A DNA stretch of 64,000 nt from an uncultured bacterium. Lineage in GTDB: Bacteria; Bacillota; Clostridia; Oscillospirales; Oscillospiraceae. The stretch covers positions 1-64,000 of the forward strand of contig CAMNQF010000008.1 of NCBI GenBank assembly GCA_946548895.1. The letters are read 5' to 3'. Shown in pieces: positions 951 to 35,145 of the stretch. Each line of letters starts with the position of its first letter. Position 1 is the stretch's first letter. The position numbers and the translations under genes were made by a program. Below the pieces are notes generated by a model. It had not been told where the DNA came from. It made no database searches and saw only the letters and a list, made by a program, of their open reading frames with translations.

Positions 951-963
951 TCTCACCATGAGA
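951..963. promoter_or_regulatory. ICE palindrome copy 1 (core TCTCA-CCA-TGAGA)
   Basis: Six bases after the repA stop codon. The left flank is AATAAA and the right flank CACATTT, so only the 5-bp inner arms are symmetric. Confidence 0.7.
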
Positions 964-1002
964 CACATTTACAGCTATAGACCCAACTTTGTGTTAAGAA
1001 TT

Positions 1003-1021
1003 GTGTCTCACCATGAGACAC
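1003..1021. promoter_or_regulatory. ICE palindrome copy 2 (full 8-bp arms)
   Basis: GTGTCTCACCATGAGACAC, a perfect 8-bp inverted repeat around CCA, 36 bases upstream of parB. Copies 1 and 2 fill most of the repA-parB gap. Confidence 0.75.
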
Positions 1022-1057
1022 GATTTTTAGCAAATAAATCAAAATGGAGGTAATTCA

Positions 1058-3202
1058 ATGGCAAACGAACCCAGCAAGACCCCGACCCCCCAGCCCCAAG
1101 CCGTCCCGCTGTCCAAAATCCACGATCTGCCCGGCGCGGTGATCAGCAAGCAGCCGGACAAGAGTTACGGCGGCCTCGTCACCAGCATCCAGGCGGGCGG
1201 CGTGAAGGAGCCGGTGGTACTCCGTCTGCGGGAGGACGGCGAGTACCAGCTTGTCACCGGCTACCGCCGCCGCAGGGCGTGTGAGCTGGCAAAACTGAAA
1301 GACATCCCCGCCCTGATCTATGAGATGTCCATGCCCGCGGCGCTGAACTATCGCAGTCAGGTGAACATCCAGCCCGGTATCCCGATCCCCGGTAAGCCGG
1401 TGCTGCCCGCCGCCCCGGGCAAAAATGGGCCGACAGCCGACGTCAAGGGGCCGGAAAAGCCGACCACTCCCGCCCACGACCAGGGCCAGGAGAAACCTGT
1501 CAAGGGGAAAGCCCCAACACAGGCCCCTGCCCCCGCCGCTGCTGACAAGGCCAAGGACGGCGCCAAGCCCGCCCAGGAACCCAAGCCCGCCGCTGCCCAG
1601 GGTGAGCAGAAGCCCAACCAGGGGAAAGACCCGGCACAGACCCCCGCCCCCGCTGCCGCTGACAAGGCCAAGGACGGCGCCAAGCCCGCCCAGGAACCCA
1701 AGCCCGCCGCTGCCCAGGGTGAGCAGAAGCCCAACCAGGGGAAAGACCCGGCGCAGGCCCCCGCCCCCGCTGCCGCTGACAAGGCCAAGGATGGGGCCAA
1801 GCCTGCCCAGGAACCCAAGCCCGCCGCCAACCAGGGCCAGGAGAAATCCGCCGAGGGAAAGGACCCGGCGCAGACTGCCGCCCCCGCCGCCGCTGATAAG
1901 GCCAAGGACGGGGACAAGCCCGACCAGGAGCCCAAGCCCACCGCCCAGCCTGCCCAGGCCCCCACTGTCACCGGCACCGCCGCCAAGGGCCCCATCGGCA
2001 CGGCCATCTCCCAGGTGCTTCCGGATCGGCTTTCGCCCCCGGACGAGGCGGCCAGGAAGGATTTTCCCGCGCCCAAGGAGGGTGAATCCTTTTCCGTGGT
2101 ACTCCATCCGGCCTACCTGGAAAAGTCCGAGTATAACACCGTGTCGGTGGACACCAAGAGCGAGGACTACGCCGAGCTGAAAAAATCCATCGAGCTGAAC
2201 GGCGTGAAAGACCCGGTGCTGGCCCGGATCGGGGAGAAGGGCACCCTGGAGATCATTTCCGGCCAGCGCCGCCACATGATCGCCACGGAGCTGAACTATC
2301 CCGTCCCCACCATCATCCAGAAAATCTCCGACGCCGACGCCAAAATCCTGGTGGCGGACGGCAACCTCCACCGGCCCAAAATCTCTACCTACGACCTGTC
2401 CCGTACCCTGCGGATGAAGATGGAGGGCATGAAGCAGAAGGCGGGCCGCCGCAAAAAGGGCAGTTTCAAAGCCGAGGAGCTATACAGCGACACGAAGCTG
2501 GCCCAGGAGATGGGTATGCCGGTCAGCAAGCTCAACCGCCTTGTCCGGCTGTCCGAGGCCACCAAGGATGTGTGTGACCGGGTGGACGATGGTTCCCTCA
2601 CCCTGTCCGTCGCGTCGGCCCTGTCCTTCTTGAAGCCGGCAAACCAGGATGGAGTGCTTCATCTGCTGGATTTGGGCTACAAAGTGCCCGCGGAGCGGGT
2701 GGAATACATGAAAAAGGTGGAGAAAGCGGGCAAGCTGAACGATCAGTCCATGCGGGATGTGCTGGACGGCAAAAATGTGCTGGACCCGCCCAAGCAGACG
2801 GTGGCCCATGCGCCCGAATCGTCCCAGGCCAGTGCCCCCGCTGTTGACATCATCCCTCCGTCCCCGGATGTGGTTCCGCCCACCCCGGCGTCGGACGCCC
2901 CCGCCGCCGGGCAGCCCGGACAGACCCCGGAGGGGGCCGCGCCCGCTGCCCCTGATGGCCCGTCCACTTCCGCGCCCCAGCCCCAGGAAGGCCAGGAGCC
3001 CGTTGACGGTAAACAGGAGCGGCCCGAATACACGAAGGTGGTTTTGGCTGGGGACCGTCTGCGCAAGTATTTCCCAGACGTGATGATGACGCCCCGCGAG
3101 ATCGAGGAAAGCATCTACGAGGCCCTGGAGGAGCGCCGCCAGCGCCAGATGAAGCAACAGGAAAAGCTGACGATCTTCCCCAAGCGGGGCCCGTCCCGCT
3201 GA
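1058..3202 (+). CDS. ParB-like partition protein with two ParB domains
   Basis: 714 residues. A first ParB/Spo0J N-terminal (CTPase) domain spans about residues 15-100, with VPLSKIHDLPGAVISKQPD and the box TGYRRRRACELA. After a Pro/Ala/Lys linker (about 110-310) a second ParB domain spans about 340-440 with GVKDPVLARI and SGQRRHMIATEL, followed by a helix-turn-helix region (about 470-560) and an acidic/proline tail. Ordinary ParB proteins are about 290 residues and carry one such domain. The role should be segregation, or nucleoprotein organisation, of the excised ICE. No ParA is visible in the window. ATG at 1058 follows AATGGAGG. The downstream ardA begins two bases after the stop, so the two are probably co-translated. 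Confidence 0.8.
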   Translation: MANEPSKTPTPQPQAVPLSKIHDLPGAVISKQPDKSYGGLVTSIQAGGVKEPVVLRLREDGEYQLVTGYRRRRACELAKLKDIPALIYEMSMPAALNYRSQVNIQPGIPIPGKPVLPAAPGKNGPTADVKGPEKPTTPAHDQGQEKPVKGKAPTQAPAPAAADKAKDGAKPAQEPKPAAAQGEQKPNQGKDPAQTPAPAAADKAKDGAKPAQEPKPAAAQGEQKPNQGKDPAQAPAPAAADKAKDGAKPAQEPKPAANQGQEKSAEGKDPAQTAAPAAADKAKDGDKPDQEPKPTAQPAQAPTVTGTAAKGPIGTAISQVLPDRLSPPDEAARKDFPAPKEGESFSVVLHPAYLEKSEYNTVSVDTKSEDYAELKKSIELNGVKDPVLARIGEKGTLEIISGQRRHMIATELNYPVPTIIQKISDADAKILVADGNLHRPKISTYDLSRTLRMKMEGMKQKAGRRKKGSFKAEELYSDTKLAQEMGMPVSKLNRLVRLSEATKDVCDRVDDGSLTLSVASALSFLKPANQDGVLHLLDLGYKVPAERVEYMKKVEKAGKLNDQSMRDVLDGKNVLDPPKQTVAHAPESSQASAPAVDIIPPSPDVVPPTPASDAPAAGQPGQTPEGAAPAAPDGPSTSAPQPQEGQEPVDGKQERPEYTKVVLAGDRLRKYFPDVMMTPREIEESIYEALEERRQRQMKQQEKLTIFPKRGPSR
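1504..1971 (+). repeat. Tandem 117-bp repeats in the parB linker
   Basis: Four copies of a 39-codon unit begin at 1504, 1621, 1738 and 1855; each starts GKDPAQ (first copy GKAPTQ) and contains AAADKAKDG and EPKP. The first three are nearly identical at DNA level and the fourth has diverged. The composition (Ala, Pro, Lys) points to an extended flexible spacer between the two ParB domains. Copy number could vary between strains. Confidence 0.85.
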
Positions 3203-3203
3203 C

Positions 3204-3872: not shown

Positions 3873-3885
3873 GGGCGCTTTTTTT
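3863..3885 (+). terminator. Intrinsic terminator overlapping the ardA stop
   Basis: GCGCCC-ATGA-GGGCGC followed by seven T. The TGA stop codon of ardA (3870-3872) sits in the loop, so a terminating ribosome would cover the hairpin. Confidence 0.75.
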
Positions 3886-5982: not shown

Positions 5983-6001
5983 GTGTCTCATGGTGAGACA
6001 C
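5983..6001. promoter_or_regulatory. ICE palindrome copy 3
   Basis: GTGTCTCATGGTGAGACAC, perfect 8-bp arms around TGG (the complement of CCA), between the oriT-like hairpins and mobC. Confidence 0.75.
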
Positions 6002-6041
6002 GAAACCCGGCGTGTTAATACGCCGCCGCCCCAAAAATAAA

Positions 6042-6054
6042 TCTCACGGTGAGA
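6042..6054. promoter_or_regulatory. ICE palindrome copy 4
   Basis: Core TCTCA-CGG-TGAGA with the usual AATAAA left flank and CACAATT right flank, 25 bases upstream of mobC. Confidence 0.7.
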
Positions 6055-6079
6055 CACAATTCTATGAAAGGATGGCGCC

Positions 6080-6388
6080 ATGCGAAAGAGGAACCGCCAT
6101 GTAAGCGTCTGGATGAACGAACAGGAATACCGGCACTTGAAGCGTCAGGCCGGGATCGCGGGCCTGGGCATCGACCCCTTCATCCGCAGCCTTGTTTTGG
6201 GTGTCCAGCTCCGCCCCCGCCCGCCCGACACCTACGCCGCCCTTCTCCGGGAGCTGTCCGCCCTGGGCAACAACGCCAATCAGATCGCCCACTGGGCCAA
6301 CCTTCAAAAGAGCGTGTCCGAGGCGGATATCCGGCGGGCCGCCGCCCTGGTATACGAGGCGTGGCGGCTGGTGAAGGAGACACTGTAA
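6080..6388 (+). CDS. mobC: MobC relaxosome accessory protein
   Basis: 102 residues, SD AAAGGATG. The N-terminal RHVSVWMNEQEYRHLKRQA fits a ribbon-helix-helix DNA-binding segment, and GNNANQIAHWAN is the signature of the MobC family. MobC binds oriT and helps melt it for the relaxase. Its stop overlaps the relaxase start (TAATG). Confidence 0.88.
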   Translation: MRKRNRHVSVWMNEQEYRHLKRQAGIAGLGIDPFIRSLVLGVQLRPRPPDTYAALLRELSALGNNANQIAHWANLQKSVSEADIRRAAALVYEAWRLVKETL

Positions 6389-9291: not shown

Positions 9292-9534
9292 GGTGTGTTC
9301 CCCCCGCGGAGGGTACGCCACCGGCCACCCCCAGTCAAGGCCGGGCGGTTGTTTCACAACCGCCCGCGAGCCGGCCAGTCTGAGGACTGGCCGGGCCTTG
9401 ACAGGCGGCGTCCGGCGGCGTATTCGGGCATTAAGGGGAACACACCCCAAATGCCGCCCAAGGGCGGCATTTGCCATCCTGGGAAACGGCAGGTTTCCCT
9501 TGCCCCCAGCGGCCAGCGCCCCGGCGCTGGCCGC
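9292..9534. other. Strongly folded non-coding region (nested hairpins)
   Basis: The 300 bases between the two flanking genes hold no gene. A 12-bp stem GGTGTGTTCCCC/GGGGAACACACC (9292-9303 with 9435-9446) encloses a three-way junction: a 9-bp stem GTCAAGGCC/GGCCTTGAC (9334-9342 with 9394-9402) and two 10-bp hairpins (9342-9366 and 9371-9394). Three more perfect hairpins follow at 9449-9472 (10 bp), 9481-9499 (7 bp) and 9509-9534 (12 bp, 2-base loop). Possible single-strand origin, ssDNA promoter or structured RNA. Confidence 0.7.
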
Positions 9535-9563
9535 CCACCTTATACGATATGGAGGAACACCCA

Positions 9564-10451
9564 ATGAAACGAACATCCACCCTTTTCCTGGCGGCACTCA
9601 TGGTATGCCTGCTGGCTGTCCCGGCCTACGCCGCCAGCTTCTACCCTATCTCCGTGGAGGAATACACCTACGGCCCCCTGGACGAGCTGCGTATCGACAA
9701 GGTGTACCAGCTCTCCCGGAGCGACGACCCCAAGGACATCCCCACCGGGGACTTTGACCGGGGCGGCTATCACTACGTTCTGCTGGATGTGGTGAAAACG
9801 GATCAGAGCGAAACGGACGCCAAGGATTACACCGAGATCGTCACCCTGGAAACGGACACCAAAGACATGGCCGTGATCATCCAGCAGTTGGAGCTGTCCA
9901 TGGAAGTCACCACCGAGGACGGCTACACCGGCACCCTCATGCCCGACTATCCCGGCATCACCGTGGAGGCCAAGGGCTACAAGACCAGCTCCCGCACCGT
10001 CACCGCCACCCGCGCCTACCCCAACCTGTCCGACGCCGACACCTCCCTGATCCCCCGGACGGTCCAGGACGGCGGACGCACCCTGACCCTGGCAGACGTC
10101 CAGTGGGAGGAGGCCGGGGGCTTCTACAACGCCACCGCCACCTACAGCGGCACCGCCAGCAGTAAGTACGCCACCGGCTATATTGCCACAGTGGAATACA
10201 AGGGTGAAGTGACCCGGACGAGCTGTGACACCGTACTCTACACCGCCACTTTCATGTCTCATGGTGAGACACAAATTGAAAACAACCCCCAGCCCACCCA
10301 GGCCCCCGCCGGGGCGGACGCTCCGGCCAGCGCGGGCATGAACTGGGCTGTGCTGGTGATCCCCGCCGCGCTGCTGCTGGGGCTGGCCGGGTTCGGCGGC
10401 TGGAAGCTGGTGAACTACATCAAGGACAAGAAAAGAGGTTATGTGAAATGA
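9564..10451 (+). CDS. Secreted, C-terminally membrane-anchored ICE surface protein
   Basis: 295 residues from ATG 9564 (SD ATGGAGG). It has a signal peptide (LFLAALMVCLLAVPAYA, cut after AYAAS), a beta-rich extracellular part with Thr/Asp-rich strands, a short Pro-rich linker (QPTQAPAGADAP), and a C-terminal membrane helix (VLVIPAALLLGLAGFGGW) with a basic tail KDKKRG. It overlaps the sortase gene by four bases (ATGA) and so probably belongs to the surface module. Family not recognised. Palindrome copy 5 is embedded in its reading frame. Confidence 0.7.
   Translation: MKRTSTLFLAALMVCLLAVPAYAASFYPISVEEYTYGPLDELRIDKVYQLSRSDDPKDIPTGDFDRGGYHYVLLDVVKTDQSETDAKDYTEIVTLETDTKDMAVIIQQLELSMEVTTEDGYTGTLMPDYPGITVEAKGYKTSSRTVTATRAYPNLSDADTSLIPRTVQDGGRTLTLADVQWEEAGGFYNATATYSGTASSKYATGYIATVEYKGEVTRTSCDTVLYTATFMSHGETQIENNPQPTQAPAGADAPASAGMNWAVLVIPAALLLGLAGFGGWKLVNYIKDKKRGYVK
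10255..10271. promoter_or_regulatory. ICE palindrome copy 5 (inside a coding region)
   Basis: TGTCTCATGGTGAGACA, 7-bp arms around TGG, read in frame as MSHGET near the end of the surface-protein gene. It is the only copy inside a gene, 177 bases upstream of the sortase start. Confidence 0.65.
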
Positions 10452-11374
10452 AAAACCGTTTGATGGGCCTTGCGGCGGCGTTCTGCCTGCTGGCGGCCCT
10501 GCCCCTGCCCGCCCACGCCCATGGCGTCGCCCCAAGCTCCGTATCCTTCGCTTCCGCCAATGGCGAAAGCTCACTCACTACGCTGGGGCTCCTTTCCCCA
10601 CAAAGCCTGGGGGGCGGCTTTGCGGGGGCCCCAAGTTATAATTTCAAAGCCCCCTCCGCCGGGGATTTTGGGACGCCCACCAGCGACGATACCATCCGGG
10701 AATGGGTGGACCCCAACGTGGACAGGAGCAAGAACAGCGCCCTGATCCCGCCCGGCTTCGGCACTCCCACCAGCTATTTGCCGGGGAGCGGAGAATTTTT
10801 GACCCCCAACCTCGCGGCGGGCGGGCCGCTGAACGGAGGCAGCCTGATCCCCGGCACCGTAGGGACGGCAACCCTCCCCGGTGCCCCCGGCACGGGCGGC
10901 GGCTCCACCGGCACCGGCTATCCCACTGTGGACTATCCCACCGCCAGCGGCCCCGTCACCGCGTTTACGGAGCTGACCCCCGACCTGTACTACAGCGACG
11001 GCAGTTTGGGCACCCTCAAAATCTCCAGCGTGGGCTTGACAGTGAAAATCTACGAGGGAACCGGCAGCGCGCCCCTGCTGAAAGGGGCGGGCCATTTCAC
11101 CGGCACCACCGCCTGGGATGGAAACTATTGTGTGGCGGGGCACAACCGGGGCGTGCGGAATGACTTCGGCAAAATCCACACCCTGCGTTCCGGCGATACC
11201 ATCAGCTTGACAACGCCCCTGGGCACCCGCACCTATTCCGTCACCAGCGTGTCCAAGGTGGGCGTCACTGACACCTCCATGCTGGAGGCCACCGCGGACA
11301 ACTGCATCACGTTGTTTACCTGCGTGATGAACCAGCCTGACTACCGCTGGTGTGTCCGGGCCGTGGCCGGATAG
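10448..11374 (+). CDS. Sortase (class D-like)
   Basis: 308 residues with signal peptide MKNRLMGLAAAFCLLAALP, a long Gly/Pro/Ser linker (about 30-180) and a C-terminal sortase barrel. Catalytic residues can be seen: His near 232 in VAGHNRG, Cys near 292 in ITLFTCV, and Arg at 300 or 304 in DYRWCVRA. Sortases cleave LPXTG-type motifs and attach or polymerise surface proteins. The adhesin encoded at 12303 ends in LPKTGY and is the obvious substrate. It starts within the stop of the upstream gene. Confidence 0.82.
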   Translation: MKNRLMGLAAAFCLLAALPLPAHAHGVAPSSVSFASANGESSLTTLGLLSPQSLGGGFAGAPSYNFKAPSAGDFGTPTSDDTIREWVDPNVDRSKNSALIPPGFGTPTSYLPGSGEFLTPNLAAGGPLNGGSLIPGTVGTATLPGAPGTGGGSTGTGYPTVDYPTASGPVTAFTELTPDLYYSDGSLGTLKISSVGLTVKIYEGTGSAPLLKGAGHFTGTTAWDGNYCVAGHNRGVRNDFGKIHTLRSGDTISLTTPLGTRTYSVTSVSKVGVTDTSMLEATADNCITLFTCVMNQPDYRWCVRAVAG

Positions 11375-12173: not shown

Positions 12174-12212
12174 CCCAAATTCCTATGCACACCCATATGC
12201 AAAAGAAATAAA

Positions 12213-12225
12213 TCTCACCATGAGA
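12213..12225. promoter_or_regulatory. ICE palindrome copy 6
   Basis: Core TCTCA-CCA-TGAGA with AATAAA left flank and CACATTTC right flank, 78 bases before the adhesin start. Confidence 0.7.
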
Positions 12226-12246
12226 CACATTTCTTTCCACCACTGG

Positions 12247-12302: not shown

Positions 12303-15300
12303 TTGAAGCAAAAAACCATCAACCGTATTGTGTCCCTGCTTTTGGCGCTGGTATGCGCCGTGGGCTTGCTGCCCCTGTCCGCCTTCGCCGCTGGGTTGTC
12401 CAGCGCCCCAGGCTCCATCACACAGAAGTCCTCGGACTACATGAAGATCAACGGCAAATCTGTCCGCTATAAGGCCGCCAGCAGCGCCATCAATAGCGTG
12501 GGCCTGCCTTATGTTTTTGATGAACAGGTGACGGTTCCGGGCTATGGCGATGTTCGCGCCCTGTGCGCCTATCAAAAGGGCACCCTGGGCCCCGCCGCCA
12601 ACGGCCAGAAGTGGAACTACAAAGAGGAAGTGAACAACGCCTCGCTGCGGGTGCTGCTTACCTATGTCTATTCCCACACCTACGGCGACTTCACCGACGC
12701 CGGGGACGCCGTGGGATTGGAGCATTGGGGCCAGTATTGGTCCGATATCTGGTTCATGGTGGCCCAGGCTGGGAGCTGGCTTTATGAGCATGGCACCATC
12801 CTGGACGTGAACAGCAACCGGGAAGGCTTCATTGAGCAGATGGCGGAGGAGTTTGTGGCCGCTATGCGCCTCTACCATGACACCTACGGCCAGTCCTCCT
12901 GGATCAAAGACTGGTCCAAAATTGGCACCCACAGCATCATTGACAGCAATGACGGCGGCAAAACCGGCAACTCCGCCTATGACTACATCGCCACGGGGGT
13001 AAACCTGGTACTGGATCACCCGGAGTATTTTCACAACTATCATTTGTGGATGTACGACTGGGACAAAAGCCAGCCCTGGAAGCTGGTGGGCCAGTCCGGG
13101 GTGCCCATGCAGCGGCTTTTGATCGCCGTGCCGGAGGACAGCCCGATTGACGATACCCTTCAGCTCACCGTGAAAAAACTGGAGGCGGGGAGCAACAAGC
13201 CTTTGGCCGGTGTAACCTTCAGCGTGAAAAGCGCGGCCGGCTCCGGGGATTTCTCCGTCACCCGCACCACCGGCGCGGACGGCACCTTGACGCTGACCGA
13301 CGCGGACGGGCTCACCGCGGGCCAGTACCTGATCACCGAGGAGGCCGTGCCGGAGGGCTACATAGCCCAAACCGAATCCCAGCTCGTTACCGTTCTGCCC
13401 AACAACTCCGCCGCCAACACCTTTACCTTCTACAACGCCACAACTACCACGGACGGGGACGGCTCCATCCGCAAGGTGAACGCGGACGATCCCACCGAGG
13501 GCATCCCCGGCGCTGTCATCCGCATCACCTCTGTCAAGCTGGACGATGGGGGCAGCTTCTTCGGGGAGTACATCACCGGGGACGGCGGATATATTTCCAA
13601 AGAGGATTTGGATTTTTCCCAGCTCCCCGCCGGGGCATATCTGGCTGAGGAAATCACCCCGCCCGAGGGCTTCATCCTCAGTTCCGACGTTGCCAAAGTG
13701 AAGCAGCCCTTTGTGTGGGACGGCAAAACCGATGTGTCCCTGGTGTTTGAAAATTCGGCCAAGGTCAAGGTCCAGCTCAAAAAAGTGGACGAGAGCGGTC
13801 AGCCCCTGGCCGGGGCCATCTTCGTGGTTCTGCGGGACGGTCAAGTGATCGCCACCGAGGAAACCCAGGTGGATGGAACCATCACCGTGTCCCATGTCAC
13901 CGAGGGCTACTGGGAATTTCGTGAAGTCCACGCGCCCGAGGGCTTCGACTGTGACCGCTCCCCAGTGGGCGTCCATGTCAACGCCGAGGATTTGCAGGGG
14001 GAACAGACTGTCGTTGTGACCAAGGCCAATCACCACAAGCGGTCCCTGACCATTGAGAAGGTGGACGCCGAAACGGGCGATCCCATCCCCAACACCAGCT
14101 TCCATGTCCGGGGTGTCAACATCGGCTACGAGAACGATGTGACCGTTGGCCCGGACGGGAAAGCGGTTCTGTCCGATATGCCCAGCGGCTGCTTCGAGGT
14201 GGAGGAAACCAATGTGCCCGCCCCCTGGATTTTGGACACCAACAACCGCAAGACGGTTTGGATCGACGCCAAGCAGGGCAAGGACATCACCGTGACCTTT
14301 GCCAACAGCACCCGCCCCGGCGTCCGGCTGCTGAAGCTGGACGGGCAGACCGGGAAGCCCATCGCGGGCGCTGTTTTCAAGATCGAGGAAGTGGACGGTG
14401 GATTTACCGACCAGCGCCAGACTGGGCCGGACGGAACCATCTTTTGGGAGGGCCTGCGGCCTGGGGCGTTCAAAATTTTTGAAGTGACCCCGGCCCCCAA
14501 TTACGTCCACGATGATACCGTCCACATCGTCCAGTTGGAACCCAACCACACCACCACCATCGAGCTGACCAACATCATCAAGCCCACCCTCAAAATCCAG
14601 AAGGTGGACAGCATCACCGGGAACCCGCTCCAGGGGGCCAAGTTTCAAATCTGGCGGACCAGCGGTGAAACCACGGCGGGCGACTACTACGACCTGGGCG
14701 TGTTCCATTCCAACGAGGCGGGCGAGATCGTGCTGGAACACACCGATCCCGGCTGGTTCAAGATTTCTGAATTGGAATCGCCCTCCGGGTACTCCATCAA
14801 GCAGGCCGACCACGAGTTTTATCTGGCCGCGGGCCAGACCAAGACTGTGACCGTGGAGAACATACCCCTGTCCGCCCTGGTGGTTTGGAAGTACGACAGC
14901 GTGACCGGCCAGCCCGTGGAGGGGGCCGTGTTCCAGGTGAAGTACCTGTCCGGCGCCAGCGGCACCGGGGGCACCGTCATCGGCACCTATAAGACCTCGG
15001 CCAATGGTTCCTTCACCGTCACCCGGCTCCAGGCGGGCGCTTACGTGGTGGAAGAACTTTCCAGCGACAGCGGCCATGTGATCGACACCGCGCCTCAGAC
15101 GGCCTACATCTCCGGCAAACAGCAGGACGTGGTGGAGCTGCATTTTGGCAACAGCCCCAAGGGCTCTGTCATGATTAAGAAGATCGACAGCATCACCCAC
15201 GAGCCGTTGTCCGATGTGGAGTTTTTGGTGACGAAAGCGGATGGCACCCTGCTGGGCAGCGCCAACGGAAAATATGTGAGCGACAGCGCCGGGACCGTCC

Positions 15301-17990: not shown

Positions 17991-17996
17991 AATAAA

Positions 17997-18009
17997 TCTC
18001 ACCATGAGA
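17997..18009. promoter_or_regulatory. ICE palindrome copy 7
   Basis: Core TCTCA-CCA-TGAGA. With its flanks it fills the whole 30-base gap between the adhesin stop and the virD4 ATG, leaving no Shine-Dalgarno sequence. Confidence 0.72.
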
Positions 18010-18020
18010 CACAATTCGAC

Positions 18021-19787
18021 ATGAAGCAGCAGCCGAATCACAGCGTCCTCCCGTGGGTACTGCTGGCCGCCCCCGTCCTTTGGATGGGGGCGGTCCTGGC
18101 CTACGCCTACGAGGACGGCATGATTGTATTTGAACTCCTGGACAGCTTTGTCGCCGCCATGGAGCATCCCTTTGCCATTGGCTGGACGCCCCATACCCTC
18201 AAATTCATGCTGGGGGCCCTGGTGGTCTATGGATTTGCTGTGACCCTGTACCTGTCCGGCAGGCAGAACCGCCGCCCTGGGGAGGAACATGGCTCCGCCC
18301 ACTGGGGGAACGTGCATCAGCTTGACCGCAAATACCGGGACAAAGACGTTCACAACAACGCCATCCTGTCCCAAAACCTGCACATGAGCCTGAACGGGCG
18401 GCAGCACCTGCGCAACCTGTTACAGATCGTGGTGGGCGGCTCCGGCTCCGGCAAAACCCGGTATGTGGTAAAGCCCAATATTTATGAGGCAAACGCCTCC
18501 TATATAGCGACTGATCCCAAGGGAGAACTCGCCCGCGCCGCCGTCCCGCTGCTTCTCCGGGAGGGCTATGTGATCCGGGTGATCGACCTCGTAGACCTGG
18601 ATCACAGCGATCACTACAACCCCTTCCACTACATCCGCAGCGACGCCGACGTGCTGAAGCTGATCGCCAATTTCATCCGCAACACCACACCGAAAGGGGC
18701 CCACTCCAACGATCCATTTTGGGAAAAATCTGAAATCGCGCTGGACTCCGCCCTTATGCTCTACCTGCTCCACGAGGCGCCCCCGGAGGAACAGACCATG
18801 GAAATGATGTTGACTATGCTGGAATATGGGGCGGCCAAAGAGGGGGACGGGGACTACCAATCGCCCCTTGACCTGCTTTTTGAGGCGTTGGAGGAGGAAA
18901 ACCCGAACCATATCGCCCTGCGCCAGTACAAGGTGTTCAAGCAGGCCCCCAGTGAAACCGCCATGAGCATCTTGATCACCGCCTCCGTCCGGCTGGCCCC
19001 CTTCACCTTGCCGGAGGTACAGCGCGTCACATCCACCGACACCATGGAGCTGGACAAGCTGGGGGAGCGGAAGCAGGCGGTGTTCTGCATCATCCCAGAC
19101 AGCAACGACGCCTCGCTGAATTTCCTGGTGGGAATGCTGTATACCCAGGCGTTCCAGGAGCTGTACTATCAGGCGGACAAGGTGCATGGCGGCAGCCTGC
19201 CCGTCCCGGTCCGGCTGATGTTCGACGAGTTCGCAAACGTGGCTTTGCCGGACGGCTATGCCCGGCTCCAGGCCACCATGCGCTCTCGGAATATCATGGC
19301 CACCATTATACTACAGAATATCTCCCAGTTGAAGGCTCTTTTTCGCGATGACTGGGAAGGCATCATCGGCAACGCGGACAGCTTCATTTACCTGGGCGGG
19401 AACGAACAATCGACCCATAAGTACGTTTCCGAGCTTTTGGGGAAAGAAACCATCGAAACCCGCACCAGCAGCCAAAGCAAGGGGCGAAACGGCTCCTACA
19501 GCCAGAATTTTCAACAGGCGGGGCGCGAGCTTTTGACGCCAGATGAAGTGCGTATGCTGGACAACCGGCTTTCCATCATCCTGATCCGGGGCGAGGCCCC
19601 GGTGATGGACGCCAAATTTGACCTGGAACGGCACCCGAACATTAAGTACACCGGGGACGGCGGGGCCATTCCCTATGTCCACAACGCCAAGTGTCTCTAT
19701 GACACGGGCGACCTGGACTTTGAATTTACATCCCTGGACGAAACCGAAATCATCGACGAATTGGAGGAATCTGACCATGAAGAATAA
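18021..19787 (+). CDS. virD4: VirD4/TraG-type coupling protein (T4CP)
   Basis: 588 residues. Two N-terminal membrane helices (about 10-28 and 57-76), Walker A GGSGSGKT near 139-146, Walker B VRLMFDEFANV near 395-405, and RSRNIMATIILQNISQLKALF, all typical of the TraG/VirD4 family. The hexameric ATPase brings the relaxase-DNA complex to the transfer channel. Normal length. The start ATG is preceded by TTCGAC and the palindrome but has no SD, unlike its neighbours. Confidence 0.9.
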   Translation: MKQQPNHSVLPWVLLAAPVLWMGAVLAYAYEDGMIVFELLDSFVAAMEHPFAIGWTPHTLKFMLGALVVYGFAVTLYLSGRQNRRPGEEHGSAHWGNVHQLDRKYRDKDVHNNAILSQNLHMSLNGRQHLRNLLQIVVGGSGSGKTRYVVKPNIYEANASYIATDPKGELARAAVPLLLREGYVIRVIDLVDLDHSDHYNPFHYIRSDADVLKLIANFIRNTTPKGAHSNDPFWEKSEIALDSALMLYLLHEAPPEEQTMEMMLTMLEYGAAKEGDGDYQSPLDLLFEALEEENPNHIALRQYKVFKQAPSETAMSILITASVRLAPFTLPEVQRVTSTDTMELDKLGERKQAVFCIIPDSNDASLNFLVGMLYTQAFQELYYQADKVHGGSLPVPVRLMFDEFANVALPDGYARLQATMRSRNIMATIILQNISQLKALFRDDWEGIIGNADSFIYLGGNEQSTHKYVSELLGKETIETRTSSQSKGRNGSYSQNFQQAGRELLTPDEVRMLDNRLSIILIRGEAPVMDAKFDLERHPNIKYTGDGGAIPYVHNAKCLYDTGDLDFEFTSLDETEIIDELEESDHEE

Positions 19788-20135: not shown

Positions 20136-20172
20136 AGGGGAAATGTGTCTCACCATGAGACACATTTCCCCT
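20136..20172. promoter_or_regulatory. ICE palindrome copy 8, extended to 17-bp arms
   Basis: Arms AGGGGAAATGTGTCTCA and complement around CCA make a perfect 37-base palindrome in the pilin-virB6 gap. It is the longest copy and would also form a stable RNA hairpin 16 bases before the virB6 start. Confidence 0.8.
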
Positions 20173-22265: not shown

Positions 22266-22610
22266 ATCGAAATCAAAATTCCCAAAGAAGTCCGCCAGCA
22301 CAAGGAGAGCATTTTCTTCGGCCTGTCCGCCCGGCAGTTTTTCTGCGCCCTGGCCGCCGTGGGGATCGCCGTGGCCGTCTATCTGCTGCTGGGTCCCGTA
22401 GCCGGGAAGGAAACCGCGAGTTGGGTGTGCATCCTGGCCGCCGCGCCCGTGGCCGTGGCGGGCTTCTTCAGCTACAATGGCCTGACCCTTGAGCAATTTG
22501 TGTGGGCCTTCCTCAAGTCTGAACTGCTGTACGCCGGGGAGCGGCGCTTTGTGTCCGAAAACTTCTACTATGGTCTGTTCCACCGAAAGGGGCGTGACGA
22601 CTTTGATTAA
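22266..22610 (+). CDS. PrgI/VirB3-like transfer protein, ATC start
   Basis: 114 residues, (M)EIKIPKEVRQHKESIFFGLSA with two membrane helices (about 22-40 and 46-68), then LEQFVWAFLKSELL: the PrgI family that precedes VirB4 in Gram-positive conjugation systems and corresponds to VirB3. GAGGTG lies seven bases before ATC 22266, exactly where the family Met belongs. An in-frame TGA at 22257 rules out any earlier start, and the next ATG (22359) would delete the first helix. It overlaps the virB4 start. Confidence 0.8.
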   Translation: MEIKIPKEVRQHKESIFFGLSARQFFCALAAVGIAVAVYLLLGPVAGKETASWVCILAAAPVAVAGFFSYNGLTLEQFVWAFLKSELLYAGERRFVSENFYYGLFHRKGRDDFD

Positions 22611-24930
22611 AGCCCTCACCGCCGCCAACAAGAGCGAACAGGACAAGTTCACCATCCCCCGCAGCGTCCAGCAGTCCATCCCCATCAAGCGCATCTATGA
22701 GGACGGCATCTGGCTGGTGGGCCGCAAGCACAGCCGGACATGGCGGTTTTCCGACGTGAACTACGCCGCCGCGTCCGAGGACGACCAGCGCGGGATCTTC
22801 CTGTCCTACGGCGGGGTGCTGAACAGCCTGCCCACCGACGCCGCCGCCAAAGTCACCATCATCAACCGCCGCCTCAACCCCGTGGCCTTCCAGCGCGCCA
22901 TGCTGATGAAGGAGCAGGGGGACGGCCTGGACGAGTACCGCAGGGAGGCCAACGGCATCCTCACCCAGCGGGCGGCGGAGAGCAATTATCTTGTCCAGGA
23001 GAAGTACATCACCCTGTCCATCCCCCAGCGGAAGATCGAGGAATCCCGCGCCTATTTCCGGCGGGTAGACGCCAACCTGTCCAAGAGCTTCGGGCGGCTG
23101 GACAGCGGGGCCCGGCCCGTGTCCAACCATGACCGGCTCCGCATCCTCCATGACTTCTTCCGCCCCGGCGAGGAACAGTATTTCACCTTCGACCAAACCG
23201 CCGCCATCCGCCGGGGCCTGGACTTCAAAGACCTGATCTGCCCGGACGGTATGCGGTTCCGGGCAAGCTATTTTGAGATGGGGGACAAGGTGGGCCGGGT
23301 TCTGTTTTTGAAGGACTACGCCAGCTACATCAAGGACAGCATGATCTCCGCCCTGTCCGACTTCCCCCGCAGCCTTATGCTGTCCATCGACATCCTGCCC
23401 ATCCCCACCGACGAGGCCGTCAAGGAAATCCAAAGCCGGATCATGGGGATCGAGACTGACATCACCCGCTGGCAGCAGCGCCAGAACGACAAGAACAACT
23501 TCACCGCCGCCGTGCCCTACGACCTGGAACAGCTCCGGGGGGAGGCCAAGGAATTTCTGTCCGACCTCACCGAACGGGATCAGCGGATGATGTTCGCCGT
23601 GGTAACGCTGGTACATATCGCGGACAGCCTGGAACAGCTTGACGCGGACACCGACGCCCTCTTTTCCATCGGGCGGGAGCATTTGTGCCAATTCTCTGTC
23701 CTGCGCTATCAACAGGAGGACGGCTTGAACACCGTTTTGCCCTACGGCCTGCGCCGGGTAAAGGCCCTGCGCACCCTCACCACCGAGAGTACCGCCGTCC
23801 CTATGCCCTTCCGCGTCCAGGAGATACAAGACCCCGGCGGCCTGTCCTACGGGGTGAACGCCATTTCCAAAAACCTGCTGATCTGTGACCGCAAGCGGCT
23901 GATCTCCCCTCACGCCTTCTACCTGGGCGTGTCCGGCTCCGGCAAGTCGGTGGGTATGAAGGCCACCGTGAACAACGTGATCCTGTCTACCAACGACGAG
24001 GTGATCATCATTGACGCCGAGCGCGAGTACGGCCCGCTGACCCGTTCGCGGGGCGGCGTGGTGGTGGAGATTTCCCCCAACAGCCCCCACCACATCAACC
24101 CATTGGAGGTGGCGGCGGAGTACGTGGACGGGGAAAACCCCATCGCCATGAAGTCCGAGCTGATCACCAGCATTTTGGAGCAGCAGATGGGGATCGGGCG
24201 GCTGTCCGGCAGCCATAAATCCATCATTGACCGCTGCACCGCCAACGTCTATCAGGACTATTTCAACAGCCGGGGCAAGGCCCCCATGCCCCTCCTGACC
24301 GACTGGCGCAATGAGGTCATGCGGCAGGCTGACCCGGAGGCTCGTGAAATTGCCCTGGCCGCCGAGCTCATCACCGAGGGCTCTCTAAATGTGTTTGCCC
24401 ACCCCGGCAATGTGGACATGAACAACCGCATTATCACCTTCGACCTCTACGAGATGGGGGAGCAGCTTCGGCCCACCGCCCTGGTGGTGACGCTGGAGGC
24501 CATCCAGAACCGTGTCATGGAGAACCGCAAGCGTGGCAAATTCACCTGGGTGTTCCTGGATGAAGTGTATTTGTACTTCAAGTACCACTATTCCGGGGAA
24601 TTTCTGTACCGGGCCTGGAAGCGGTTCAGAAAGTACGCGGGCATCATGACCGCCGCCACCCAAAACGTGGAGGAGTGCCTGAAATCCGAAACGGCCCGGC
24701 TTATGCTGGCGAACTCTGAATTTCTGCTGCTGTTCAACCAGGCGGCCACCGACCGGGTGGAGCTGGGGCGGCTCCTGCACATCTCCGACACACAAATGGG
24801 GTACATCACCAACGCCGAGCCGGGCCACGGCCTGCTGAAAATGGGCGGCTCCCTGGTGCCCTTCGCCAATGACATCCCCAGGGACACCGAGCTTTACCGC
24901 ACGCTGTCCACCACCCCCGGCGAGAATTAA
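22603..24930 (+). CDS. virB4: VirB4/TraE-type conjugation ATPase
   Basis: 775 residues from TTG 22603 (AAAGGGG ten bases upstream; GTG 22594 is an alternative). N-terminal part LTAANKSEQDKFTIPRSVQQ, the conserved RIYEDGIWLV, Walker A GVSGSGKS near 442-449, Walker B FTWVFLDEVYLYF, and the motif AATQNVEECLKS. Energises substrate transfer and pilus assembly at the membrane with PrgI and VirB6. Full length. Confidence 0.9.
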   Translation: MIKALTAANKSEQDKFTIPRSVQQSIPIKRIYEDGIWLVGRKHSRTWRFSDVNYAAASEDDQRGIFLSYGGVLNSLPTDAAAKVTIINRRLNPVAFQRAMLMKEQGDGLDEYRREANGILTQRAAESNYLVQEKYITLSIPQRKIEESRAYFRRVDANLSKSFGRLDSGARPVSNHDRLRILHDFFRPGEEQYFTFDQTAAIRRGLDFKDLICPDGMRFRASYFEMGDKVGRVLFLKDYASYIKDSMISALSDFPRSLMLSIDILPIPTDEAVKEIQSRIMGIETDITRWQQRQNDKNNFTAAVPYDLEQLRGEAKEFLSDLTERDQRMMFAVVTLVHIADSLEQLDADTDALFSIGREHLCQFSVLRYQQEDGLNTVLPYGLRRVKALRTLTTESTAVPMPFRVQEIQDPGGLSYGVNAISKNLLICDRKRLISPHAFYLGVSGSGKSVGMKATVNNVILSTNDEVIIIDAEREYGPLTRSRGGVVVEISPNSPHHINPLEVAAEYVDGENPIAMKSELITSILEQQMGIGRLSGSHKSIIDRCTANVYQDYFNSRGKAPMPLLTDWRNEVMRQADPEAREIALAAELITEGSLNVFAHPGNVDMNNRIITFDLYEMGEQLRPTALVVTLEAIQNRVMENRKRGKFTWVFLDEVYLYFKYHYSGEFLYRAWKRFRKYAGIMTAATQNVEECLKSETARLMLANSEFLLLFNQAATDRVELGRLLHISDTQMGYITNAEPGHGLLKMGGSLVPFANDIPRDTELYRTLSTTPGEN

Positions 24931-24931
24931 A

Positions 24932-24944
24932 TCTCACCATGAGA
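24932..24944. promoter_or_regulatory. ICE palindrome copy 9
   Basis: Core TCTCA-CCA-TGAGA between the virB4 stop and the methylase ATG. As before virD4, the sequence before the ATG is TTCGAC and there is no Shine-Dalgarno site. Confidence 0.72.
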
Positions 24945-24957
24945 CACATTTTTCGAC

Positions 24958-28127: not shown

Positions 28128-28135
28128 AAAATAAA

Positions 28136-28148
28136 TCTCACGGTGAGA
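28136..28148. promoter_or_regulatory. ICE palindrome copy 10
   Basis: Core TCTCA-CGG-TGAGA, nine bases after the NlpC/P60 stop codon, right flank CGCGATTTTTT. A promoter -35 (TTGACG) starts ten bases downstream. The rest of the 28,128-28,449 gap holds promoters only. Confidence 0.68.
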
Positions 28149-28157
28149 CGCGATTTT

Positions 28158-31909: not shown

Positions 31910-33019
31910 ATGGATGGAATTATCAACAACCCATTTTCTGGGCAGGAGTATATCCAGTACGGGAAGTTTACGTTCAAAAATGAGACCAGCAAGATATATC
32001 GAGTGGACCCGGCAACTGTTAATGTGGACGAATTTGTTACGCTGGACACAAGCATTAAGAGCCAGACGGCTGCATGGAAAGGGTACTACAGCGACATTGC
32101 CCTGTTCCAAAGCCCCGTGGCCGATGTTAAGAAAGAGGTAGATGCCAAGACCACCGCCGCCATCAATGGCTTTTTTGACGGCACAGTGTCCGAGGATGAG
32201 TTGGCCGATACATTCCAGACTCTGGCCGGACAGCTTTCCGATGCCTGCCAAGAGGCCGGTTATCCGATTCCACTCCAGTCGAAAGGCGTGACCCAATCCT
32301 TAACTGAGACCTTTTACAGTGGATTTCGCCGGAAAATTTTGGAGGTTGCCGTCCAACGCAGCAACCAAGAGGGCAAACAGTATATAGCAGGCGAGATGAA
32401 CGCCCAGCGGAATTGGAAATACTATAATTCCGACTACTATTTCAGAAGCGAAGCGGCCATTTCTGCCATCACGGACGGGCTGAACAAGCTGGCCCAGGGG
32501 CCTGCCTATGGGGGCTTTACCATTCCCGACTACAAGGCGGAGGGGCTGAACCTCTATTACAACTATAACACCGCCTTTTCCAATGGCTTCGCTGTGGATG
32601 AACAATTCATGCTGGACCCGGACGCGGTTCCGCCGGAAAACTTTCAATGGTTTTATCAATCTGGCGGCGACGGTACAAGTAAGGTAATCGAGGCTGATTC
32701 CCTGACCATCGGACACCCGGACGGCACCACAGAATTTATAGATTACAGGCCCAAGAGCTTCGACCCCACAGACTACAGGACAGCCACCACCTGGGCCGCC
32801 TACCGGGACGCCCAAGGGAACAAGCACGTTGTCTCCACGAACTTCTTCTACAATTTCTCCAAAGATGATCTGCGTAATGTGGCGGATTTGCTGAACTTCA
32901 CCCAGGGCGATCCAGCCCAGGATTCCGCTGTCAACCGCTTTCTGAAAAATTTGCAGGTATACAGCCAGGGGTACTTTTCGCGGTTCCCTCAGATAAAAAG
33001 TTTTGATTGTCGCATATAA
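31910..33019 (+). CDS. Unrecognised cargo protein C
   Basis: 369 residues, SD GGAGG, no signal peptide or membrane segment. Helical N-terminal half (SPVADVKKEVDAKTTAAING, EDELADTFQTLAGQL), a Tyr-rich middle (NWKYYNSDYYFRSEA) and a C-terminal part with VVSTNFFYNFSKDDLRN. Third gene of the A-B-C group. I do not recognise the family; a shared function with A and B is inferred only from the operon. Confidence 0.6.
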   Translation: MDGIINNPFSGQEYIQYGKFTFKNETSKIYRVDPATVNVDEFVTLDTSIKSQTAAWKGYYSDIALFQSPVADVKKEVDAKTTAAINGFFDGTVSEDELADTFQTLAGQLSDACQEAGYPIPLQSKGVTQSLTETFYSGFRRKILEVAVQRSNQEGKQYIAGEMNAQRNWKYYNSDYYFRSEAAISAITDGLNKLAQGPAYGGFTIPDYKAEGLNLYYNYNTAFSNGFAVDEQFMLDPDAVPPENFQWFYQSGGDGTSKVIEADSLTIGHPDGTTEFIDYRPKSFDPTDYRTATTWAAYRDAQGNKHVVSTNFFYNFSKDDLRNVADLLNFTQGDPAQDSAVNRFLKNLQVYSQGYFSRFPQIKSFDCRI

Positions 33020-33095
33020 GCTTTAGAGAGAATAACATTCGACAGAAAGCCAGATGTTCAACACAGAGCGATTTTGTTGTTTGGAGGATCAGAAC

Positions 33096-33269
33096 GTGTG
33101 TGAGAATCAAAATGAATCCCGATGGGTGCCATGCCCGATATGTGATGGGCGAACGAAAACAAAAGTGTATGAAGATACTGTCCTTGTAAAATTCCCGCTG
33201 TATTGCCCAAAGTGCAAAAAGGAAATCCGGGTGGACATTGTAAAATTCAGAATGGTTTTGAGCAAGTGA
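33096..33269 (+). CDS. Cysteine-rich KTR-domain ICE protein
   Basis: 57 residues from GTG 33096 (SD TTGGAGG, 8 bases). WVPCPICDGRTKTKVYEDT, then VKFPLYCPKCKKEI: two CxxC pairs around a KTK box, the cysteine-rich KTR protein common near the recombination end of Tn916/Tn1549-like ICEs. It should bind zinc. Function not known. It marks the return from cargo to ICE backbone. Confidence 0.78.
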   Translation: MCENQNESRWVPCPICDGRTKTKVYEDTVLVKFPLYCPKCKKEIRVDIVKFRMVLSK

Positions 33270-33287
33270 GCCAGACGCATAAAGCGG

Positions 33288-33327
33288 AGAGCCTGCATCC
33301 CCTTGACCGGGGACGCAGGCTCTTTTA
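33288..33327. terminator. Bidirectional terminator between KTR and XRE genes
   Basis: AGAGCCTGC/GCAGGCTCT outer stem with CCCC/GGGG inner pairs, followed by TTTTACG. Convergent genes end on both sides. Confidence 0.7.
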
Positions 33328-33332
33328 CGTTA

Positions 33333-33689
33333 TTAGGACGTTTTAATCGCCCTGACCCGGTTGGCCCTCAGTGCGGACAGGACGGCTTCAACCACGGGGA
33401 TCATTGTGGCAGCCTCCTGTTCATCACATTCCGCGATAAGGGAGCGCAGCCGTTGGATGGACGGGGTTTCGCGTTCCATTTCCGGGTTGAAAATTTCCCT
33501 GGAATCAATCTGGAGCGCATGAATCAGCGGGTACAGGACTTCCATTTTGGGATTTCCCTTGTAATGCTCTATGTTCATTACAGTTCGGGTGTCCCGGTCT
33601 ATCTTACTTGCTACCTGGGCTTGTGTCAGGTCAAGTCTGCCCCTGGCCCGTTTCACGGCATCTCCAAGGGTGCGGGAAAATTCTCGCAT
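33333..33689 (-). CDS. XRE-family transcriptional regulator
   Basis: 118 residues, MREFSRTLGDAVKRARGRLDLTQ, helix-turn-helix QAQVASKIDRDTRTVMNIEHYKGNP, and a C-terminal helical tail. A likely ICE repressor; it faces away from the sigma-factor gene. The 370-base gap to that gene contains an 11-bp inverted repeat AATACAGTTCA/TGAACTGTATT (33883-33920) that could be its operator. Confidence 0.75.
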   Translation of the reverse strand: MREFSRTLGDAVKRARGRLDLTQAQVASKIDRDTRTVMNIEHYKGNPKMEVLYPLIHALQIDSREIFNPEMERETPSIQRLRSLIAECDEQEAATMIPVVEAVLSALRANRVRAIKTS

Positions 33690-33882
33690 GGCAATTCACC
33701 TCATAGATATTCTACAATACACCAAACTTCGATTGAACTCACCACAATTCTGCTCTTTAGTACACTGTGATTCATATTTCGACATGGGAGGGCCTGTATT
33801 GTGTTGGAACTGGTCGCTATTAGCGTTAGCTCGAATATGTATTTCAATGTTGCGGACAGGATAATCACAAGCTGACAGGTGA

Positions 33883-33920
33883 AATACAGTTCACCCATAA
33901 TTTGGAATATGAACTGTATT
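33883..33920. promoter_or_regulatory. Inverted repeat in the XRE-sigma intergenic region
   Basis: AATACAGTTCA/TGAACTGTATT, 11 perfect bp with a 16-base loop. A shorter one, GGTTTCC/GGAAACC, follows near 33930-33950. Apart from these I see no gene between 33,690 and 34,062. Confidence 0.5.
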
Positions 33921-34062
33921 GCAATTCCGGTTTCCCCGCTGGAAACCCTCAAAATTATTTTTCTAAAAAGCGACATTTTGGTGGCATAGCAGGCTATTCC
34001 ATTCGCTCTACTGGCGGAAAGGGAAAGAACCACCCATCCCCCCAACGAAAGGGGGTGAGAAG

Positions 34063-34500
34063 ATGGAACCGACCCCCCGCGAGTGCGGCGAACAGTGCCA
34101 GTTTGATTACTACTGTAAATTGGTGCTGAAGCATGAGGCCATTGACTATCTGCGGGAGCTGCGATACCGCCGTGACAACGAAACGGTGTTCAGCGCCTTG
34201 CCGCAGGCGGAAATGGACAAGCTCTGTGCGACAGACCGCTATCCCAGCGATAGCTATGTGTTCAGCTCCTATGGTTGTGACCTGCCGATTGAAAACGAGC
34301 TTGTGGCCGAAGCCTTTGCCAGCCTGTCCGCGCCGGATCAAAGCATTTTGATTTTGCGCTGCGTGATGGATCTGACCGACAAAGAAATCGGCTCGGTCAT
34401 GGGGCTGTGCCGGAGTGCTGTCCAGAAACGCCGGACGCGGACGATAGAGGCCCTGCGGACAAAATTAGCGGCGTTAATGCCAGGAGGAGGAAAAGTATGA
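34063..34500 (+). CDS. ICE sigma-70-like factor
   Basis: 145 residues with a recognisable region 4 (SLSAPDQSILILRCVMDLTDKEIGSVMGL, then RRTRTIEALRTKL). Small sigma-like proteins at this place are usual in Tn916- and Tn1549-like elements and may activate excision or transfer. SD GGGGGTGAG. Overlaps the HTH gene by four bases. Confidence 0.75.
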   Translation: MEPTPRECGEQCQFDYYCKLVLKHEAIDYLRELRYRRDNETVFSALPQAEMDKLCATDRYPSDSYVFSSYGCDLPIENELVAEAFASLSAPDQSILILRCVMDLTDKEIGSVMGLCRSAVQKRRTRTIEALRTKLAALMPGGGKV

Positions 34501-34733
34501 GCAAGTCCCAGCACAAGGGCAAGGAGCTGCCGCCCCTTTCGGTGATCCATGCCGCCCGGGCCGGGGACGCCGAGGCCATGGATCGTATTCTTCGGTACTA
34601 TGAGGGGTACATCAATAAGCTCAGCACCCGGAAATTCCGTGATGAGTTTGGCCGTTCCTATGATTGCCTGGACGAGTACATGAAGCGCCGTTTGGAGATC
34701 AAGCTGATTCACTCTATCGTCACAATGAGCTGA
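34497..34733 (+). CDS. Helix-turn-helix ICE protein (HTH_16 type)
   Basis: 78 residues, SD AGGAGG, start overlapping the sigma stop (ATGA). ELPPLSVIHAARAGDAEAMDRILRYY and SYDCLDEYMKRRLEIKL are characteristic of the small HTH protein paired with the sigma factor in Tn916-like ICEs. Confidence 0.78.
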   Translation: MSKSQHKGKELPPLSVIHAARAGDAEAMDRILRYYEGYINKLSTRKFRDEFGRSYDCLDEYMKRRLEIKLIHSIVTMS

Positions 34734-34849
34734 ACACGGCCTGCGGCGGGCGGGACGAACTTACCCTTTCCGCGTCCCGCTCCGCTATATGGCCGCAGCA
34801 CCTTGACAAAGAAAGCCCGCAAGATAACGGCGGCGCAGTATAGGGCAGC

Positions 34850-35095
34850 AGATACATTCTGTATGTGCCGCGTCGGTGGGTACGCCAGAACCCCATACCT
34901 TATGGGAGAGCGAGAAATACCTACACCGAAAGCTGGCAGCTTATAACCAGCGGCACATATGCCAACGATACTCCCCTATAGCCACAGTCCGAGCGTTCAA
35001 AGCGTCGCAGGCAATGGGTAGGGCCGCGTGAGAACCACGCGGGGGTGAAAATCCCGTGGGCTGTGCCGCCAGCCGTCTGATACCTGCCCATAAAA
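34850..35095 (+). ncRNA. Candidate structured RNA, copy 1
   Basis: The 436 bases between the HTH gene and tnpW have no gene. They share four sequence blocks, in the same order and orientation, with 52,150-52,410 (minus strand): GGGTACGCCAGAACCC (34878), AACGATACTCC (34964), GGGGTGAAAATCCCGTG (35042) and GTCTGATACCTGCCCA (35074). A perfect 7-bp hairpin CCGCGTG-AGAAC-CACGCGG precedes the third block. The family name is not certain to me. Confidence 0.6.
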
Positions 35096-35132
35096 CCGCA
35101 TTTGGGATCGTGCGGATATTTCCATAATTAAA

Positions 35133-35145
35133 TCTCACCGTGAGA
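35133..35145. promoter_or_regulatory. ICE palindrome copy 11
   Basis: Core TCTCA-CCG-TGAGA with AATTAAA left and CACAATT right flanks, 24 bases upstream of tnpW. It is the last copy I see. Confidence 0.7.

Follow-up and report, generated by a model that had tools for sequence, protein, structure and literature searches.

What are eleven copies of one palindrome doing, scattered through the transfer genes of a mobile element? The question is raised by a 64,000-nucleotide stretch of DNA from an uncultured member of the Oscillospiraceae (GenBank assembly GCA_946548895.1, contig CAMNQF010000008.1, positions 1 to 64,000), which is the start of the contig that we label C8 and which we call the window. 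It carries an integrative and conjugative element (ICE) of the CD1110/CD1115 type; we take CD1110/Tn1549-like ICE to be the appropriate family name. An earlier, sequence-only reading suggested that the palindromes are either operators of an ICE regulator or a centromere-like array for the two-domain ParB encoded by this element. Our analysis favors ParB as the binder and disfavors the partition centromere. We consider it probable that the eleven palindromes serve an orphan, KorB-like ParB as dispersed loading sites or operators.

A palindrome confined to one element

Searching the window for GTGTCTCANNNTGAGACAC with up to three mismatches gave 10 matches, against 0.11 expected. The core, TCTCANNNTGAGA (TCTCA-NNN-TGAGA), matched exactly 11 times, the number counted in the sequence-only reading, and allowing one mismatch added none (0.97 expected). 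That reading held that a similar density across the chromosome would speak against it. In the whole genome (116 contigs, 3.81 Mb), the core occurs 11 times and all 11 occurrences lie within the ICE (G000:C8:951-35145), while the reversed control pattern occurs once. As the earlier reading also had it, no copy follows in the roughly 29 kb that remain of the window after position 35,148.

The 19-base copies start at 948, 1003, 5983, 6039, 10254, 12210, 17994, 20145, 24929, 28133 and 35130. These positions mostly agree with those first reported, but the copy placed at 20136 sits at 20145, with its core at 20148. Nine copies, rather than ten, are intergenic; of the other two, the one at 24929 shares bases with the stop codon of the VirB4-like gene, and the one at 10254 lies within the open reading frame (ORF) 9471-10451.

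Each site consists of two half-sites, TGAGAC(A/G)C, that face outward from a 3-base spacer, and the centers CCA/TGG and CGG/CCG are reverse complements of each other. As 8-3-8 palindromes, three copies are perfect and one has a single mismatch; the other seven have a degenerate left arm, AAATCTCA, all seven in one orientation. An asymmetric site joins one strong half-site to one in which base 1 is changed. The flanks were described earlier as conserved; this holds in part, since AATAAA stands to the left of five of the 11 copies and CACAATT to the right of three. In an alignment of 44 asymmetric sites, conservation spans about 27 bases (gAAATAAATCTCACCGTGAGACGCAATTc), with nothing conserved past that.

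Related elements keep the positions and change the half-site

In related ICEs, palindromes built in the same way (a hexamer, a 3-base spacer and the inverted hexamer), up to about 20 per element, stand at the same gene junctions, so the poor positional conservation that the sequence-only reading named as a possible objection is not seen. The spacer is 3 bases long in the window and in the classes of relatives, and from lineage to lineage the hexamers make up a ladder: TGAGAC, TGGGAC, TGAAAC and TTGGAC.

The pattern also emerges when the motif is not supplied. We ran de novo discovery of palindromes with a 3-base gap on 46 stretches. The window, C4A, nested ICE B, C15, L041, L042_3, L045, L051 and L053 had entered this set through the motif and the others through ParB similarity or plasmid matches; eight stretches (L040, L044, L046-L050 and L052) were excluded. 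Fifteen of the 46 had at least five copies, and the half-sites of all 15 top families were TGAGAC, TGGGAC, TGAAAC, TTGGAC or TGTCCC. Four copies were counted in five stretches; three of these fall within the palindrome family and two (G263C42 and G949C13) outside it. The window itself scores only four because of its asymmetric arms.

We then compared positions across 21 elements covering the classes TGAGAC, TGGGAC, TGAAAC and TTGGAC. A site lies upstream of parB in all 19 elements whose stretch includes the parB start. Seventeen of the 18 elements with a MobC match have one upstream of mobC, its center 24-68 bases away in 13 and 459-484 bases away in four, and 11 of 13 have one within 278 bases past VirB4 (10 of these within 33 bases). 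Of the 19 elements that include the parB start, 16 have RepA ahead of parB; C15, G381C105 and G406C6 gave no RepA match. Because position is kept while the hexamer changes jointly across the copies of one element, a co-evolving binding protein is called for.

Two elements illustrate the range of half-sites. G824C5 carries about 20 copies of GCGTTTCA-CGG-TGAAACGC, the parS half-site plus one extra center base. In the relative G157:C4, the palindrome of an outer ICE is of the AATGCGTCTCA-NNN-TGAGACGCATT type and occurs 17 times, and the ICE nested in it (L035-L037, 74754-95802) has 13-14 copies of CTTYGGGACA-WWW-TGTCCCRAAG, confined to the nested ICE within the stretch read. The nested ICE has none of the outer ICE's palindrome and no ParA match, and the frame that encodes its ParB is 522 codons long.

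Within the family, AATCTCANNNTGAGACAC is present in three of 150 genomes, counting the window's own. A longer form of the motif was found in 17 stretches of an 84,980-species collection, 12 of which contain matches to proteins of the window ICE; several of the 17 share an assembly, and the named records are mostly labeled Oscillospiraceae or its members. A pattern scan of viral contigs gave eight stretches with one match each and no match to ICE proteins, which we treat as chance. A class-level search (one of 393 genomes, the window's own) and a search of a second family (one of 200, already known) brought no new ParB.

A ParB-family protein as the candidate binder

The candidate binder is the 714-residue product of parB (1058..3202, plus strand). 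It contains two ParB_N-type stretches (PF02195, E = 5.3e-20; TIGR00180, 91 bits against a cutoff of 58) joined by a repetitive P/A/K/Q (PAQ-rich) linker, and a ParB-type helix-turn-helix follows the second. GxRR and NxxR are the nucleotide-pocket motifs of the ParB-CTPase fold, and both are invariant in 15 of 15 aligned ParBs (G63, R65, R66, N97 and R100). A second-domain profile built from these 15 proteins aligns through the helix-turn-helix with 6t1f (Caulobacter ParB) and 7nfu. It spans the N-terminal and helix-turn-helix parts of Spo0J/ParB/Noc and matches KorB more weakly (E = 2.9e-4). A two-domain ParB was dropped as a requirement: G862C28 (15 copies) and G381C105 (10) have no separate N-terminal ParB domain by tblastn.

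We predicted the half-site class of each element from its nearest neighbor, leaving one element out at a time; single-member classes were unscored, and the element sets differ among proteins. The ParB C-domain predicted the class in 21 of 21 cases. The other proteins scored 14/15 (RepA), 15/16 (MobC), 15/16 (relaxase), 11/13 (VirD4), 9/11 (VirB4) and 11/17 (DUF3846). In one element, G286C34, the proteins disagree. Its ParB has its closest neighbor among the remaining TGGGAC elements, its own class (0.86), while those of its MobC (0.62), relaxase (0.61, own class 0.58, a small margin) and DUF3846 (0.82) belong to other classes. The way in which the hexamer class follows the ParB DNA-binding domain, together with the parS half-site of the TGAAAC lineage, points to ParB as the likely binder of the palindromes.

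In the alignment with 6t1f, the recognition-helix residue equivalent to Caulobacter ParB 174 follows the hexamer: TGAGAC elements have S or A there, TGGGAC and TTGGAC elements N, and TGAAAC elements M. Placed on a maximum-likelihood tree, the TGAGAC class requires three changes, and the TGGGAC elements group apart from the TTGGAC elements; the match of S/A with its hexamer and that of N with its own therefore each recur in separate groups. Classes predicted from this residue were fixed before the search output for four further ICEs: TGAAAC for G1005, TGAGAC for G834 and G949, and TGGGAC for G852. Three predictions matched and one was half right. When the stretches were scanned with a looser pattern, G1005 gave one TGAAAC site (15/16), G834 one TGAGAC site (13/16) and G949 two TGAGAC sites (14/16). 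In G852, TGTCCAAANTTTGGACA occurs in seven to eight copies; it agrees with the prediction at two bases and departs from it at one.

The preceding residue, R173 in Caulobacter ParB, contacts guanine 1 of parS, according to the available text of PMC7383237. Where ParB has R at this position (G286C34, G381C105, G406C6, L045 and G428C1), 28 of the 29 sites counted keep G1 in each arm; the window ParB has V, and seven of its 11 sites have A in one arm. ParBs with V or T in other elements keep G1 (G862C28, 14/15; G1012a, 9/9; G1012b, 15/15; G824C5, 19/20). A link between residue 173 and G1 is only consistent with these counts and makes no rule.

By homology to ParB and KorB, the protein would dock at the palindromes, form a closed clamp that depends on CTP and slide along the adjoining DNA toward nearby promoters. 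There it may repress or coordinate the parB, replication, relaxase, adhesin, type IV secretion and recombinase genes. Its own gene would be among the targets, given the site upstream of parB. The 3-base spacer would set the ICE sites apart from the host's parS even if the half-sites were identical.

The asymmetry of many sites suggests a further possibility. In a panel of related loci, the degenerate arm lies upstream relative to the nearest gene (tblastn) in 42 of 44 asymmetric sites, a set somewhat different from the 44 aligned for flanking conservation; 95 more sites were symmetric and two too distant from any gene, and the panel includes close relatives, so the 44 are not independent. Asymmetric sites might load clamps with one favored direction along the ICE, so that ParB would coat or silence all of the integrated element as transcription or transfer proceeds, and each ICE lineage might have re-evolved its half-site, avoiding interference between co-resident ICEs and with the host ParB. 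We regard this extended version as unlikely.

Several observations count against ParB-bound operators. The 42/44 polarity is unexpected for a plain palindromic operator, and the aligned asymmetric sites show no promoter motif at a fixed distance. G381C105 has no site before mobC, and neither it nor G031C4 has one directly past VirB4. The window ParB does not match Pfam HTH_ParB at E = 0.01, a threshold that its relative L059 passes. Gene phylogenies are correlated: the other proteins also score well, with fewer elements behind them, and few independent changes underlie the hexamer classes. The parS contacts given in the available text of PMC7383237 do not include residue 174. In the four genomes with a predicted class, a strict pattern run over the whole genome gave no match, and in three of them sites came only from the looser scan, with one or two matches each, at a level at which G852C1 likewise gives three to a wrong class. 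Finally, the helix of G428C12 reads as S type, yet two of its three sites are TCCCACSGTGGAAC.

The ParB frame of G428C12 is broken in the helix-turn-helix region. It continues into a repetitive adhesin-like ORF of 2177 codons (L056-L057, about 34139-34600 of the joined stretch), as if parB had been broken by recombination.

Partition, other binders and structural alternatives

A ParB that binds these sites might serve the excised circle instead, through partition, clustering, tethering to the nucleoid or membrane, or SMC loading, rather than regulate genes. The homology to Spo0J/ParB/Noc over the N-terminal and helix-turn-helix parts would suit such a role, as would the position of parB beside a RepA_N-type replication gene and the cluster of copies in G824C5. 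We searched the 46 stretches, some of them incomplete, by tblastn with a single ParA query from a related element. None of the 15 stretches with at least five palindrome copies had a ParA match; ten of the 46 did, and none of these ten had a dispersed family above three copies. In the window there was no match either, and the contig begins at repA, so the region upstream lies outside the search. The sites also stand at transfer-gene junctions and not in one cluster. The arrangement thus departs from ParABS in lacking a parA match beside parB in the 15 rich stretches and in having a center of 3 bases, not the 2 of parS; the host chromosome has three exact parS sites and four with one mismatch, all with the 2-base spacer. 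Since palindrome-rich stretches are without a ParA match and ParA-bearing relatives are without such palindromes, we prefer dispersed regulatory or loading sites to a partition centromere, and a maintenance role seems to us a secondary and rather unlikely account.

The binder might also be another protein of the element, such as the XRE protein, the sigma/helix-turn-helix pair, RepA or MobC, the correlation with ParB then reflecting shared descent. RepA (14/15) and MobC (15/16) do follow the class, and the XRE and sigma-region-4 proteins that the window ICE encodes lie outside the nearest-neighbor set. We nevertheless think this improbable, for in G286C34 the hexamer goes with ParB and not with MobC, relaxase (by its small margin) or DUF3846, the half-site resembles parS, and the match between residue and hexamer recurs. 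RNA hairpins in a polycistronic transcript (attenuators, terminators or protein-bound hairpins) would account for paired changes in the two arms between classes, for the polarity of sites relative to the neighboring gene and for arms that reach a terminator-like AAAAAT...ATTTTT in some relatives. However, a terminator scan matches only one of the 11 window sites (28133, minus strand), the stem has just 5 pairs in seven copies, and one hexamer per ICE, matched to the ParB helix, is unexpected of an element that acts by structure only; we find hairpins very hard to credit. Least plausible of all, to the point that we give it almost no weight, is a REP-like or MITE-like palindrome that spread in the element without function. 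Its numerous near-identical copies are what such a repeat would leave, but the positions are common to ICEs with different hexamers, the host genome has none elsewhere, and the 44 aligned sites show no conservation past the 27-base site.

Other candidates were set aside. An ICE scan gave 26 terminator-like matches against 23.9 expected and 27 against 20.2, which does not make terminators the main explanation. Promoters fared no better: the first 20 kb gave six matches where 5.4 were expected and the remainder 19 where 9.8 were, with inconsistent placement at the sites. The C5-methylase, which GTCTC as a type IIS recognition word brings to mind, was rejected as the reason for the sites, as some palindrome-rich ICEs have no methylase match between VirB4 and NlpC. 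Nor does the intragenic site prove selection at the DNA level: the encoded SHGET is kept in eight of eight intragenic cases, and the DNA arm is changed in two of the eight (a ninth row, G852C1, apparently lies before the gene and is outside these eight).

Sites and genes along the element

The ICE belongs to its family by its CD1110 VirB4 and CD1115 VirD4, with matches to NF045971 (926 bits, cutoff 325) and NF045973 (489.5 bits, cutoff 250), and by its large serine recombinase, with Resolvase, Recombinase and DUF4368 domains. Its genes run in the order RepA_N/DUF6017, ParB, ArdA, DUF3846, DUF3560, LPD28, MobC, relaxase, sortase, SpaA adhesin, VirD4, TrbC-like, VirB4, C5-methylase, NlpC/P60, further genes, XRE, sigma-region-4 and serine recombinase. 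All eleven sites, and the genes given here with coordinates and strand, are on the plus strand.

At the left end, the ORF for a RepA_N + DUF6017 replication protein (135..944), its start cut off by the contig end, is followed 3 bases past its stop by site 1 (948..966, AAATCTCACCATGAGACAC). Site 2 (1003..1021) is a perfect GTGTCTCACCATGAGACAC, with the parB start 36 bases on. Two sites precede mobC, which encodes a MobC/NikA-like relaxosome protein (6080..6388): site 3 (5983..6001), a perfect GTGTCTCATGGTGAGACAC, and site 4 (6039..6057, AAATCTCACGGTGAGACAC), from which the mobC start is 22 bases on. Site 5 (10254..10272, ATGTCTCATGGTGAGACAC) is the one within ORF 9471-10451, where it encodes SHGET in frame, and the sortase gene begins 175 bases on. 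Site 6 (12210..12228, AAATCTCACCATGAGACAC) lies upstream of the gene for a SpaA-type adhesin. This surface protein of 1895 residues with 15 SpaA stretches (12303-17990) sits with the sortase (10448-11374) inside the transfer region.

Site 7 (17994..18012, AAATCTCACCATGAGACAC) occupies the intergenic space between SpaA and the VirD4-like coupling protein of the CD1115 family (18021..19787). Site 8 (20145..20163), a perfect GTGTCTCACCATGAGACAC, is upstream of ORF 20189, which has no family match and for which the label VirB6-like comes from position alone. The gene for the VirB4-like ATPase of the CD1110 family (22489..24930) is overlapped at its stop codon by site 9 (24929..24947, AAATCTCACCATGAGACAC), which lies ahead of the C5-methylase gene. 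Directly past the NlpC/P60 gene is site 10 (28133..28151, AAATCTCACGGTGAGACGC). Site 11 (35130..35148, AAATCTCACCGTGAGACAC) lies upstream of a 47-codon ORF (35170-35313) without a family match, which precedes the large serine recombinase (35405..37111; Resolvase, Recombinase, zinc ribbon and DUF4368) at the right end of the element.

Elsewhere in the family, sites stand singly except in G824C5 (L098, 14739-15525), where seven copies are grouped near VirB4, six of them spaced 123 bases apart.

Comparison with known systems

Tn1549/CD1110-type ICEs are common gene-transfer vehicles in gut Firmicutes. Judged mostly by titles and abstracts, the literature searched gave no description of these sites or of such control in ICEs of this type. 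Scattered ParB-family sites (KorB, Noc) and ParB-type ICE regulators (BisD) are already known. If our reading is true, an orphan ParB clamp with sites at numerous transfer genes would run a group of these elements, as a counterpart of KorB in Firmicutes. The lineages would also provide a natural series of ParB specificity changes, with at least four half-sites and one candidate recognition residue, and the genome in which one ICE sits inside another that has a different palindrome would make the evolution of ParB insulation directly testable.

The ICE system shares with chromosomal ParB-parS the TGAAAC half-site of one lineage and the ParB_N, GxRR, NxxR and helix-turn-helix features alignable with 6t1f. 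It differs in its spacer (3 bases versus 2), in sites spread over tens of kilobases and in having no ParA match. Noc and its NBS sites are alike in involving a ParB paralogue, scattered sites and a changed half-site, and the available text of PMC7383237 describes Noc/ParB specificity as set by a few interface residues. The ICE system, however, is element-borne, and its half-site changes fall at positions 3-5 rather than 1 and 6.

BisD of ICEclc is likewise a ParB-domain regulator of transfer genes encoded on an ICE, as outlined in PMC7423338 and PMC12704722. Unlike the repressor proposed here, BisD, from Proteobacteria, activates together with BisC; the ICE ParB may likewise have an activator role, like that of the BisD/BisC pair (PMC7423338).

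The system that our reading follows is KorB with its OB operators. Both systems have a ParB-family protein of a conjugative element and short dispersed sites at transfer and replication genes, though KorB acts with KorA and the ICE sites have a 3-base spacer and parS-like half-sites. The OB sequence is unrelated to the ICE sites. For KorB of RK2 (IncP), the accessible text of PMC11790492 reports repression of replication and transfer genes from operators 45 to more than 1,000 bp from promoters, and an operator role of this kind is what we infer for the palindromes of the window.

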